A DNA stretch of 61,345 nt from Verrucomicrobiota bacterium (GTDB lineage Bacteria; Verrucomicrobiota; Verrucomicrobiia; Chthoniobacterales; UBA10450), in the NCBI GenBank assembly GCA_003220155.1, contig QHRO01000247.1, forward strand, positions 1 to 61,345. The letters run 5' to 3'. A program made the translations under genes and the position numbers. Every line of letters begins with the position of its first letter. Position 1 is the stretch's first letter. The notes beneath the pieces were generated by a model. The model ran no database searches and was not told the origin of the DNA. It was given only the letters and a program-made list of their open reading frames with translations. This document shows positions 3,555 through 58,167 of this stretch, one piece after another.

Positions 3555-4724
3555 TCAATCATAAATTCCATCGATCGCCCACCCATCCTGATCGCAATGA
3601 CAGCGCGCAATGACGCCATTCTCGATTTCCACATCCCATTCCACCCGCGCCCACGCGCGTTCGTCCCACCAATTTCCCGAAAGCGGAAACGGTCCATCCT
3701 GCCTCATCGTCGTGCCCTCCACTGCCAGTCCGGCTCGGACTTCCGCCGCACGCACATGAGCGGGCCGATTATTTTCCAGCAGCACCGTCGCTTTTTTCCG
3801 TTTTCGAAACCGCCGCAACGGAACGCATCCCCTCACCCCCGTGCTATCGCACACGCCCCTTTCCCTCTCTTCGTCATCCCGAGCGAAAATGCCAGTCCGG
3901 CTCGGACCGAGGGATCCCGTTGTGAAACTTAAAGGTAGCGCTACGGGATTCCTCGACTTCGCTACGCTTCGCTCGGAATGACCGATTTCTGGCTTGGGAT
4001 GACGGAATTCCCACGCAAACGGTTCCATCCGAAATGCATCTGGCCGATGCGTTTCTTCCAGCATCGGCGTGCCGACCCGATCCGCTCCGAGCAATCCGAT
4101 CAGTCGCGCCAATGTCTCATGCAATTGCACGGGATCGCGCAATGCCGTTTCGAAAAGTCCAAACTGTTGCCGTACCGAACGTGACGGCTGCGCTTCCAGC
4201 TCAATCGCAACGATTGGATGCTTCGAAGTAAAGTTTTCCAGATGCGTGTGCAGCATCCGAAAAAGGATATCTTCGTTGTTAGTCGGCTGCGGAATTTTGA
4301 AAATCCGCTCGTAGTGCGATTTGTCGGCGAAAGTGATGCGCAGGCGCAGCTCTTTGGCGACGAGATAGATTGCGTTTAATCGCGTCGCCAGCTGCTGTAA
4401 AAATCGTCGCAAAATGAAGAGGAGCGGCTCGACGGTTTCAATTTCGTTTTCGAACTCAAAGCTTTCGATGAACGATTCCGGGGGAGAAACGAGTTTCAAA
4501 ATTCGCTCGCCGCGTCCATTGGCGCGTTCCCACATTTCAACTGCGCGCATCCCGAGGCGCGCGGCAAGATCATCGCGTGACAATGCCGCAAGTTGCCCAA
4601 GGGTGTGAATTCCCCATTGATGCAGAATCGAAAGAATGCGTTCTGTTTCTTTGGCGCGTTCGATTTGTTTGGCCATGCGCGCCGGCAAGACCACCGGCGC
4701 GATGGGCAAAGCAGGCGCATTCAC
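3555..4724 (-). CDS. imuB: ImuB, C-terminal half (thumb and little-finger part of the Y-family-like protein)
   Basis: This is the distal half of ImuB, the catalytically inactive Y-family polymerase homologue that bridges the clamp, ImuA and DnaE2. Residues about 30-60 (ILSILHQWGIHTLGQLAAL, RLG) are the helix-hairpin-helix thumb, then a little-finger-like region runs to about 230, and WWDERAWARVEW near the end is the ImuB C-terminal domain. The palm is absent here; it is encoded separately at 11907-12476 on the other strand. The GTG at 4724 is the only reasonable start, because an in-frame TAA lies just upstream. A perfect LexA box lies 28 bases upstream. Residues about 248-285 derive from a palindromic insertion and about 329-334 from a mini-hairpin insertion. 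dnaE2 follows. It is either a true split subunit or one half of a gene broken by inversion. Confidence 0.85.
   Translation of the reverse strand: MNAPALPIAPVVLPARMAKQIERAKETERILSILHQWGIHTLGQLAALSRDDLAARLGMRAVEMWERANGRGERILKLVSPPESFIESFEFENEIETVEPLLFILRRFLQQLATRLNAIYLVAKELRLRITFADKSHYERIFKIPQPTNNEDILFRMLHTHLENFTSKHPIVAIELEAQPSRSVRQQFGLFETALRDPVQLHETLARLIGLLGADRVGTPMLEETHRPDAFRMEPFAWEFRHPKPEIGHSERSVAKSRNPVALPLSFTTGSLGPSRTGIFARDDEERERGVCDSTGVRGCVPLRRFRKRKKATVLLENNRPAHVRAAEVRAGLAVEGTTMRQDGPFPLSGNWWDERAWARVEWDVEIENGVIARCHCDQDGWAIDGIYD
3724..3740. repeat. 17-base mini-hairpin repeat (copy 1)
   Basis: GCCAGTCCGGCTCGGAC, whose GTCCG/CGGAC arms fold around a 3-base loop. The identical 17-mer recurs at 3891 and 31821. 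Here it encodes extra residues in the imuB-C tail (AEVR-AGLA-VEG), consistent with a micro-insertion. Confidence 0.75.
3872..3982. repeat. Dispersed palindromic repeat, family A (copy 3), in frame inside imuB-C
   Basis: The arms CGTCATCCCGAGCG and CGCTTCGCTCGGAATGAC, plus inner GGGATCCCGT and ACGGGATTCC, define a family A element. It is translated as about 37 residues of imuB-C, just before PLRRFRKRK. Its left arm is itself interrupted by the 17-base mini-hairpin at 3891-3907. Length and phase keep the frame open. Confidence 0.8.
3891..3907. repeat. 17-base mini-hairpin repeat (copy 2), nested in a family A palindrome
   Basis: Identical to the copies at 3724 and 31821. Removing about 20 bases here restores the usual family A arm (CCGAGCGAA followed by CGAGGGATCCCGT), so the mini-hairpin was inserted after the larger element. 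Confidence 0.75.
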
Positions 4725-27985: not shown

Positions 27986-28070
27986 CGTCATCCCGAGCTA
28001 AGTCGAGGGATCCCGTTGCGTAAGCTTTAAGGTTTCATCGCTGGATCCCTCGACTTCGCTCGGGATGACG
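27986..28070. repeat. Dispersed palindromic repeat, family A (copy 5, best preserved)
   Basis: CGTCATCCCGAGCTAAGTCG and CGACTTCGCTCGGGATGACG are the ends, with AGGGATCCCGTTGCG and TGGATCCCT inside and the family core GCTTTAAGG in the centre. It lies 12 bases after the aminotransferase stop and 56 bases before tRNA-Tyr. Confidence 0.85.
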
Positions 28071-30739: not shown

Positions 30740-31818
30740 GTCTGAGCATCGCCGGCATGAGTTGGGTCACACCGCTCGGCAGCAACGTGAATGATGTTTG
30801 GCAACGATTGGTCGCGGGCGAGGCCGCGTCGATCGAAATCCTAGAGAACGAACAAAACGGTGCGCGCTATCTTGTCCGTCGCGTTCCAGCCACCACAATG
30901 GCACATCTCCCGCCGCATGCGCGATTGCGCCGGGCGAGCGCGATCTCACGGTTCGCTGCCGCTGCTGGACTAGCGGCGCTGGCTGAAGCGAAGACCCCGC
31001 CATCTCTCGATCGCATTGCGCTTGTCTTCGCCATTTCAAACGGCGGCGTCATTTATACGCGGCGCTTTTATGCAGAGATCGTGAAGTCGGGGGCACAATC
31101 TGCCAGCCCGCTGCTATTTCCTGAAACAGTCTTCAACGCGCCAGCCAGCCATCTTACTGCGATCCTGGAAATCAGCGGTGCTTCTTATACCGTTGTCGGG
31201 GACGGCGCCGTCGGCATTCTTGCACTCAAGCTGGCGGACGACCTGCTGGCGTCGGAGGATGTCGACACCTGCCTTGTCGTTGCCGCCGAGGAAATCGATT
31301 CGCTCGTCTGCGAAGCTTATCGGCAATGGCGTTTCCTGCGAGACCCGAAGAAACCGGAAACGGGGCGCGGCATGATCATGAGCGAAGGCGCGGGCGCGGT
31401 CTTGTTGAAGCGGTCTAATGATGGGATCGAGATCGACCAGATTGTTCCCGGCGCAAATTTCTTTCGCCGTTCCGAAGCTTCGGCGCGACTAGGTAGCGTG
31501 GTCTCGCGTCTCAAGAACGGAATCGGATTCTGCGTTGGCAGTGGAAACGGCACATTTATCGATCGAGCGGAACGCGCGGCGGTGGGCGATGAAATGCCGG
31601 TTTATTCACCAAAAATCGCGCTCGGTGAAAGTGTGGGTGCTTCCGTCTTCTGGCAACTGATCACGGCGGCAAAAGCGTTGGAAGCTGGAACGTTGCCAGG
31701 GTCGTCGAAGCCACCCGTCGATTCGCGCGCAGTCGTGCTGGCTTGTGGTCTCAACCAACAGACTGGCGGGCTGACTCTGCGCAGACGTGTTTGCCCTGCT
31801 TTTCAGGGGAGTACGTAA
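30736..31818 (+). CDS. Ketosynthase-like protein lacking the catalytic triad (chain-length-factor-like)
   Basis: About 360 residues from the ATG at 30736, overlapping the fabF stop by ATGA; the longer frame to 30667 lies within fabF. The thiolase fold is recognisable (MSLSIAGMSWVTPLGSNVND, GRGMIMSEGAGAVLL), but the active-site Cys region reads TVVGDGAVGIL, the first His motif NGTFIDRAER, and the second GESVGASVFW, so all three catalytic residues are gone. Type II polyketide chain-length factors also lose the Cys and pair with an active KS. Here erosion is greater. Its last codons run into a 17-base mini-hairpin repeat just after the stop. Confidence 0.8.
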   Translation: MSLSIAGMSWVTPLGSNVNDVWQRLVAGEAASIEILENEQNGARYLVRRVPATTMAHLPPHARLRRASAISRFAAAAGLAALAEAKTPPSLDRIALVFAISNGGVIYTRRFYAEIVKSGAQSASPLLFPETVFNAPASHLTAILEISGASYTVVGDGAVGILALKLADDLLASEDVDTCLVVAAEEIDSLVCEAYRQWRFLRDPKKPETGRGMIMSEGAGAVLLKRSNDGIEIDQIVPGANFFRRSEASARLGSVVSRLKNGIGFCVGSGNGTFIDRAERAAVGDEMPVYSPKIALGESVGASVFWQLITAAKALEAGTLPGSSKPPVDSRAVVLACGLNQQTGGLTLRRRVCPAFQGST

Positions 31819-31820
31819 AC

Positions 31821-31837
31821 GCCAGTCCGGCTCGGAC
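31821..31837. repeat. 17-base mini-hairpin repeat (copy 3)
   Basis: GCCAGTCCGGCTCGGAC again, identical to 3724 and 3891, two bases after the TAA of the ketosynthase-like gene and 48 bases before the lptD start. Confidence 0.7.
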
Positions 31838-56223: not shown

Positions 56224-58167
56224 ATGCACCAGCGCGGAGCTCAATCGACAGGCCGTCCTAAAATCAGCCGCCGCTGGTTGCGTCTCGGCATTTGCATTAG
56301 TCTGGCCGTGCTCACGTGGGTTGTCTTTGGACAGCTGCTCCAGGACGACTTTATTAACTATGATGACCCACGTTACGTTTACGAAAATACCAACATAACC
56401 AAGGGCCTTACCATTGGCGGTATAGCCTGGGCATTTACCCATATTCATTCGATGAATTGGCATCCGCTGACGACGATCTCGCACATGCTTGACTGCCAGC
56501 TGTATGGTCTTAAGCCCGGCGCCCATCACTTTACGAATGTCTTGTTACACTCAATTGTGGCGATCCTGCTTTTGCTCGTGCTGCAGCGGATGACCGGTGG
56601 TCCGAGCGGGACTGGCAGTATTTGGCGGAGCGCATTTGTTGCAGCGGTATTCGCAATTCATCCGTTGCGTGTGGAATCTGTCGCGTGGATAGCGGAGCGA
56701 AAGGACGTGCTGAGCGGTGTTTTCTTTATGCTCACACTGCTCACCTATTTCCGTTACGTGCGCGTGCGCTCGATCGGCCACTATTTGACGGTGCTATTCA
56801 TGTTTGCCCTTGGTTTGATGTGCAAGCCGATGCTGGTCACCCTGCCATTCGTGCTGCTAGTTCTGGATTACTGGCCGCTCGGTAGAATCAGAGGTCAGAA
56901 GTCAGACGTCAGCGGTCATGAAAATTTAGTTATGCTGGTCGTGGAGAAAATTCCACTCGTTGGGCTCTCCGCAATCTCCAGCGTCGTGACATTTCTTGCC
57001 CAGCGAGGTGCGGTCGGCTGGACCGAGCAGTTGCCGGTGTTGGCCCGAATCAACAACGCCGTGGTGACATACGCCGCCTATATGTGGCAGATGCTCTGGC
57101 CGGTGAAGCTAGCGGTGTTCTACCCTCACCCGGAAAGTCGACTACCGCTTTGGGAAATCATCCTATGTCTTTTACTTCTAATTGGCATTACGGCGGCGGC
57201 GGTCGTTCTGCGAAAGTCGCGGCCCTACTTCATCACCGGTTGGCTGTGGTACCTGGGGATGCTTGTGCCGGTGATCGGATTAGTGCAAGTCGGCTGGCAG
57301 GGCCGGGCCGACCGATATACCTACCTACCACAAATCGGCCTTTACATAGCGATCACCTGGGGTATTGCCGATGTCACGGCGGCTTGGCGTTGGCAACGTG
57401 AAATTTTAACTGCCGGCACTGCAATTGTGGTTGGTCTCTTGAGTTGGCGCGCCTCGGTTCAAGCGTCTTACTGGCGCGATAGCGAGACGCTGTTTACTCA
57501 TGCGCTTGCAGTCACCTCAAACAATGATGTTGCCGAAAATAACCTCGGCATCGTCTTTTTGCAAAAAGGTAACCTGGACGAAGCCATCTCTCTGCTGCAA
57601 GCCGCCGTGGATCTTCGCCCCGAAAATAGCCCTGCCCATGAGAATCTTGCCAAGGCCCTTCTTCAAAAGGGACAGGTGACCGATGCGTTGGTTCACTATC
57701 GCAGATTACTCGAGCTACAGCCAGACAACATAGAGGTGCACAATATTGTGGGCACGGTCCTGATCCAGCAGGGTCAAGCCCGGGAGGCGGTCGAAGAATG
57801 GCAGAAGGTCCTGGCTATTCAGCCCGACAACGGAAACGCCATGAGCAACCTCGCGTGGGTATTTGCAACTTCGCCAGACGACTCGCTTCGAGACCGTGCG
57901 AAAGCCGTCCAACTGGCCGAGCAGGCCATGCGCATTTCCGGCGGCAGAATCCCGATAATCTTCCGCACATTAGCAGCGGCCTATGCTGAGAATGGCCGGT
58001 TCTCTGAGGCAATTCAAACAGCGCAGCGCGGCATTGAATTAGCCAATAGCCGGGGTAACTCTGGTTTAGCTACCGAGCTCCAAAGCAATATTGTCCTTTA
58101 CCAAGAACGGCAGCCGTTGAGGGACCCTAGTTTAACAAATGGCAGTTCGTCGCCTCACGGTGAATAA
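56224..58167 (+). CDS. TMTC-like membrane GT-C/TPR protein, paralogue 3
   Basis: 647 residues, complete. The GT-C motif FINYDDPRYVYENTNI is followed by SMNWHPLTTISHMLDCQLYG, HHFTNVLLHSIVAILLLLVL, and AIHPLRVESVAWIAERKDVL; membrane helices run to about residue 420, then TPRs (AENNLGIVFLQKGNLDEAIS, VHNIVGTVLIQQGQAREAVE, MSNLAWVFATSPDDSLRDRA) and the C-terminal motif LQSNIVLYQERQPLRD. A CAGAGGTCAGAAGTCAGACG-like simple repeat lies in the loop before VVEKIPLVG. Its stop lies 28 bases inside the next paralogue, so they form a pair. Confidence 0.88.
   Translation: MHQRGAQSTGRPKISRRWLRLGICISLAVLTWVVFGQLLQDDFINYDDPRYVYENTNITKGLTIGGIAWAFTHIHSMNWHPLTTISHMLDCQLYGLKPGAHHFTNVLLHSIVAILLLLVLQRMTGGPSGTGSIWRSAFVAAVFAIHPLRVESVAWIAERKDVLSGVFFMLTLLTYFRYVRVRSIGHYLTVLFMFALGLMCKPMLVTLPFVLLVLDYWPLGRIRGQKSDVSGHENLVMLVVEKIPLVGLSAISSVVTFLAQRGAVGWTEQLPVLARINNAVVTYAAYMWQMLWPVKLAVFYPHPESRLPLWEIILCLLLLIGITAAAVVLRKSRPYFITGWLWYLGMLVPVIGLVQVGWQGRADRYTYLPQIGLYIAITWGIADVTAAWRWQREILTAGTAIVVGLLSWRASVQASYWRDSETLFTHALAVTSNNDVAENNLGIVFLQKGNLDEAISLLQAAVDLRPENSPAHENLAKALLQKGQVTDALVHYRRLLELQPDNIEVHNIVGTVLIQQGQAREAVEEWQKVLAIQPDNGNAMSNLAWVFATSPDDSLRDRAKAVQLAEQAMRISGGRIPIIFRTLAAAYAENGRFSEAIQTAQRGIELANSRGNSGLATELQSNIVLYQERQPLRDPSLTNGSSSPHGE

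Follow-up and report, generated by a model that had tools for sequence, protein, structure and literature searches.

A 17-base hairpin recurs in the window and twice within one gene

As one 17-base sequence, GCCAGTCCGGCTCGGAC, recurs exactly at three places in the stretch of DNA analysed here (the window, 61,345 nt), we wondered whether it is a mobile element, how it enters new sites and what might move it. The three copies, at 3724-3740, 3891-3907 and 31821-31837, all lie on the (+) strand, and a fourth with one mismatch (GCCAGTCCCGCTCGGAC) is found at 56600-56616 (-). A preliminary description had placed the exact copies at 3724, 3891 and 31821 and judged them beyond chance; these coordinates were confirmed, and shuffled windows gave a mean of 0.25 matches with up to 3 mismatches allowed. 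It had also assigned two copies to one gene, and both 3724 and 3891 indeed fall inside the imuB reading frame, the latter interrupting an arm of a family A repeat (REP-A) as described. Including the three bases before the 17-mer, the features are:

3555..4724, minus strand: imuB-like ORF, host of copies 1 and 2
3721..3740, plus strand: copy 1 (ACT followed by GCCAGTCCGGCTCGGAC), within the frame of imuB, a minus-strand gene, and read as VRAGLAV
3872..3918, plus strand: CGTC-type REP-A arm (CGTC-ATCCC ... GGGAT), split by copy 2
3888..3907, plus strand: copy 2 (AAT followed by the 17-mer), in the loop of the REP arm and also within imuB
3946..3983, minus strand: partner REP-A arm of that dimer, without the element
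27986..28070, strand not assigned: intact REP-A dimer without the element, a paralogous empty site in the window
31818..31837, plus strand: copy 3 (AAC followed by the 17-mer), intergenic, right after or overlapping the TAA stop of the upstream ORF
56600..56619, minus strand: copy 4 (one mismatch), in frame in a membrane TPR/glycosyltransferase-like gene, adding GPSGTG

Occupancy of these sites differs among genus-mates. The site of copy 1 is filled in G002, G003, G005 and G009 and empty in G004, G007 and G008. The REP that holds copy 2 is common to the imuB of relatives, with the element in this genome (G000), G005 and G002 and without it in G003, G009 and G007. Copy 3, between a ketoacyl-synthase-like ORF that ends with the TAA at 31816-31818 and a downstream LptD/OstA-like gene, is present also in G003, G005 and G008, and G005 has a copy at the same site as copy 4. 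Insertions concentrate in the ImuB linker: most relatives (imuB of G002-G010) carry REP arms and mini-hairpins in frame there, and through this read-through the linkers are very variable among relatives.

The conserved unit is about 20 nt long with a hairpin at its 3' end

When 72 exact copies were aligned with their flanks, conservation was strong only from -4 to +17 and the outer flanks were unrelated; a weaker signal beyond these limits arises because many copies sit inside repeats. The unit is thus about 20 nt long, a short 5' tag ([A/T/C]A[C/T], most commonly AAC, AAT, TAC or TAT) followed by the 17-mer, which consists of GCC, A and a hairpin with a 5-bp stem (GTCCG/CGGAC) and a 3-nt loop (GCT). 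The base after the 17-mer is usually a pyrimidine and belongs to the target, as paralogous empty sites have the same base after the target. None of the six frames of the 17-mer contains a stop codon.

The stability of the hairpin alone is not unusual (-4.1 kcal/mol, z -1.3). A paired double change in the stem (GTGCG/CGCAC; C-G to G-C), form GCCAGTGCGGCTCGCAC, was found in about 20 copies versus 2 for the control in a purpose-made search of 58 relatives, at 1-3 copies each in 14 genomes (for example L375) and in many cases with the same AAY tag. In this set, which the targeted search had enriched for GCCAGTGCGGCTCGCAC, single pairing-breaking changes outnumbered GU changes. Stem covariation at this one pair would therefore back the hairpin in a supportive way, short of proving it. 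Rfam gave zero matches at any window copy, and no occurrence of the 17-mer was found in the literature searched.

Near-identical copies are numerous and limited to one family

The preliminary description had read the sequence as a possible mobile hairpin and proposed to count its copies genome-wide, to look for empty sites in relatives and to inspect the flanks for target duplications. In its own genome, a draft of 3.35 Mb in 354 contigs (all genomes compared are draft MAGs), the 17-mer occurs 73 times exactly, 118 times with ≤1 mismatch and 141 times with ≤2, and the reversed-pattern control 2 times. Each of the ten further genus members has 11-123 copies (≤1 mismatch). Genomes from the family's other genera contain 0-50, and those from the rest of the order nearly none, one genome excepted; across the phylum, the exact 17-mer is present in 4 of 387 genomes, three of them in the same family (f1). 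The element is limited to one Chthoniobacterales family (Candidatus Udaeobacter type), and the remainder of the phylum has hardly any copies. Most named records that contain it are MAGs of soil Verrucomicrobia/Chthoniobacterales, including a Candidatus Udaeobacter.

G040, from another family of the order, contains 32 copies, mostly in a different, conserved repeat of ~90 nt, and gave no evidence for the same process. Most of the copies sampled there (L181-L200) lie inside this repeat, tcgtcggttacgtatcgatttagatatgc...17-mer...cgccttgccggcggcccattttgaacgcaacg, which is perhaps integron attC-like or another long repeat. Among viral contigs (IMG/VR loci L332-L366), 35 stretches matched; about 30 contigs contain the 17-mer, some of them with 2-4 dispersed copies (L346/L353, L357, L358/L359). 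The flanks of these matches are mostly other than AAY, often with G before the 17-mer, and part of them are probably due to chance.

Insertion replaces about 2 nt, mostly in the loops of palindromic repeats

Empty sites were found both at orthologous genes of relatives and in paralogous repeats, the latter for about 50 copies in 0.4 Mb of sequence compared. In orthologous and paralogous filled/empty pairs alike, the predominant change puts ~20 nt in place of ~2 nt and so lengthens the site by a net 18 nt; for a few copies the difference is +17 or another value. The flanks revealed no target duplication, ~2 nt being lost instead. In paralogous pairs from several repeat families the replaced dinucleotide is GT (or GG, GC), and families B and C show the same replacement of GT by the 20-mer. 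Unrelated stretches of DNA receive the element whole, in both orientations and as a rule directly 5' of a pyrimidine. The pyrimidines at -1 and +17 might have been a target duplication of one base, but their association is weak (p 0.012), and the REP pairs assign +17 to the target, so this reading was rejected.

Another palindromic repeat surrounds about 70% of the exact copies with flanks (50 of 72): 34 are in REP-A and 16 in families B-D, and most of them occupy the loop of a CGTC-type REP arm. Two of the 22 remaining copies resemble decayed repeats, leaving ~20 in unique DNA. REP-A arms (CGTC-ATCCC...GGGAT) match the CGTC super-family of repeats (PMC3733652). Their loop has 6 nt in the 51 empty arms, most often GAAGTC, and 24 nt in the 24 filled ones; an insert of that size is always the element, and the filled arms bear seven different stem sequences (triplets). 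About 139 REP-A arms in this genome lack the element. About every fifth arm is therefore occupied, even though the arms together account for well below 1% of the genome. This shows that the element prefers palindromic repeats, above all the loops of REP-A arms. Tandem and self-nested copies also occur (L048, L073). Inverted doublets were absent from the own-genome stretches examined, where the only two neighbour pairs closer than 300 nt are both direct.

Copies within protein genes differ between close relatives

In-frame copies were detected in mutS, mtnA, aguA (agmatine deiminase), deoxyhypusine synthase, aspS, a rhomboid-like gene, imuB, the membrane TPR gene, thiC and others (gene names were given from reading the protein sequences), in at least four different reading frames. 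Filled and empty orthologues in genus-mates differ by 18 nt. Comparison of this genome with G005 gave 96.3% identity for both aguA (1106 aligned columns) and deoxyhypusine synthase (819 columns), with one gap opening (18 nt) in each. Given the net gain of 18 nt and the stop-free 17-mer, genic insertions add six residues and are therefore tolerated; six codons are added in frame in aguA, deoxyhypusine synthase, mutS and imuB.

The aguA site is filled in this genome and, by a slightly different copy, in the more distant G010, and empty in the near relative G005, which can be explained by independent insertion at a preferred site or by inter-lineage recombination. More generally, the filled state at shared sites could partly reflect recombination between relatives instead of new insertion. 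In aspS (L072, L102, L121, L122), one and the same position holds the element or its remnants in differing number and form among several genus members, which suggests repeated insertion into the element's own remnants. The rhomboid-like gene has an 18-nt tandem unit here (L022) that is absent in G005 (L131), either through insertion beside an old remnant or through slippage loss.

Overall, copy numbers and filled/empty sites back the mobile-hairpin reading of the preliminary description, and the sequence is probably a very small (~20 nt), non-autonomous mobile element with more than 100 near-identical dispersed copies. Copying during replication or repair, which that description had also suggested, would be one possible route. 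Its ~20-base size and recent in-frame insertion would therefore place it among the smallest mobile DNA elements known.

A single-stranded DNA enzyme as a putative driver

Y1-transposase hits, of both RAYT and IS200 types, number 10 in this genome, some of them weak, within long unrelated ORFs and doubtful; every genus member has such hits. None of the 10 own-genome Y1/RAYT loci is flanked by the element, and an exact copy lies within 1.5 kb of only two of them, on a single side and inside other repeats. For the genus (n=11), RAYT/Y1 number and copy number of the element are correlated (rho 0.76), but for the rest of the family (n=26) they are not (rho -0.03). A PF00078 reverse transcriptase occurs in this genome but is lacking from all ten other genus genomes, with 11-123 copies each, and from the high-copy genomes G023 and G029. 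An RNA route is therefore less likely than a single-strand DNA route.

This points to a model in which the hairpin would move as single-stranded DNA, with a host-encoded, hairpin-handling enzyme acting on it in trans. The leading candidate for this enzyme, as yet unproven and put forward tentatively, is a RAYT/Y1 transposase. A bolder version is also conceivable, if somewhat short of probable: the 20-nt hairpin would be a bona fide transposing unit whose chemistry (a swap of 20 nt for 2 without duplication, aimed at loops and nearly always +18) differs from that of any described transposase, reverse transcriptase or integrase, and a putative re-purposed or novel single-stranded DNA enzyme of Udaeobacter-type soil bacteria would drive it, making it a source of six-residue in-frame insertions. 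As a separate observation, in two RAYT genes (L033:1843, L176:1321) the DNA encoding the RAYT motif NPVRAGL is 3 mismatches from the reverse complement of the element (VRAGLA), a likeness noticed post hoc and possibly due to chance.

Alternative explanations

The copies might instead be a recurrent mutational product, made anew by the replication machinery from abundant donors through template switching or hairpin-primed synthesis at palindromes. The strong preference for palindromic loops, sites filled in different lineages and the lack of a dedicated enzyme among our findings agree with this; however, the ends and the net +18 are nearly constant, donor flanks are never copied, and the restriction to one bacterial family suggests a lineage-specific factor, so that we regard this origin as unlikely. 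Slightly more doubtful is movement through an RNA intermediate, in which the transcribed hairpin is reverse-transcribed into gaps. Size and nesting are like those of cyanobacterial small dispersed repeats (SDRs), and pairing-preserving variants exist, but the PF00078 distribution described above speaks against it, although a divergent or past reverse transcriptase is possible.

Still less probable is that the hairpin is a mere component of CGTC-type REP-A and other palindromes and spreads with them, even though 34 of the 72 copies in this genome lie in REP-A arms and 16 more in families B, C and D. The ~139 arms without the element, the seven stem triplets of the filled arms and the presence of the same 20-mer, with the same replacement, in unrelated repeat families all argue against this. 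Being part of a larger common repeat, which the preliminary description had named as a possible refutation, also fails on the ~20 of 72 copies that lie in unique DNA, some of them midway through conserved genes. Because of the genic copies this reading fails as a full account; part of the REP-A copies could have spread along with the REP itself. A conserved coding sequence (the other refutation named there), protein motif or part of a known structural RNA can be set aside almost entirely: all six frames are stop-free and a similar sequence encodes the VRAGL motif of RAYT proteins, but genic copies are present or absent at orthologous sites of relatives and therefore not conserved coding sequence, many copies are non-coding, the genic ones use several frames, and Rfam is silent in the window.

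Comparison with known systems

Short hairpins with an unpaired 5' tag, and RAYT genes in the genomes that bear them, link the element to REP/REPIN sequences, for which a GTAG or CGTC tag, inverted doublets and a RAYT gene flanked by the repeat have been described (PMC3116915, PMC2817692, PMC3733652). In contrast, the tag here is AAY-GCC-A, inverted doublets and a flanked RAYT are lacking, and the element occurs in genes and inserts into REPs. Like MITEs it is non-autonomous and dispersed, but it is far smaller and has neither a terminal inverted repeat pair nor a target-site duplication. In-frame insertion into protein genes is shared with Rickettsia palindromic elements (RPEs), which are over 100 nt long as compared with 20 nt, and no sequence relation to them was seen. 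RPEs are partly CGTC-type (PMC3733652). Membership of the REP/REPIN, MITE or RPE classes fails on the features tested.

Since the description of the cyanobacterial SDRs, the movement of such small repeats has called for an explanation. Many clean filled/empty pairs, including ones from close genomes, a near-constant signature and a favourite target make mechanisms testable here, and through its net +18 the element is also a natural means of inserting peptides in frame into the housekeeping proteins of abundant soil bacteria.

Elhai et al. (2008) reportedly described the small dispersed repeats SDR1-8 of Nostoc and relatives, and an RNA intermediate, with the hairpin transcript reverse-transcribed into gaps, is said to have been proposed for cyanobacterial SDRs. 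SDRs are 21-27 nt long, have many dispersed copies, share a hairpin with compensatory changes, are often nested, and are clade-restricted and recently mobile. The present element resembles them in being ~20 nt long, dispersed and hairpin-forming, nested in repeats and in itself, confined to one clade and recently mobile. It differs in host phylum and probably in sequence, in being slightly shorter than 21-27 nt, and in the near-constant 20-for-2 swap (net +18) and the in-frame insertion into housekeeping genes documented here. The term 'small dispersed repeats' is cited in PMC3116915. Among described classes SDRs come closest, and the element would be an equivalent of theirs from a different phylum, distinguished by a sharper insertion signature.
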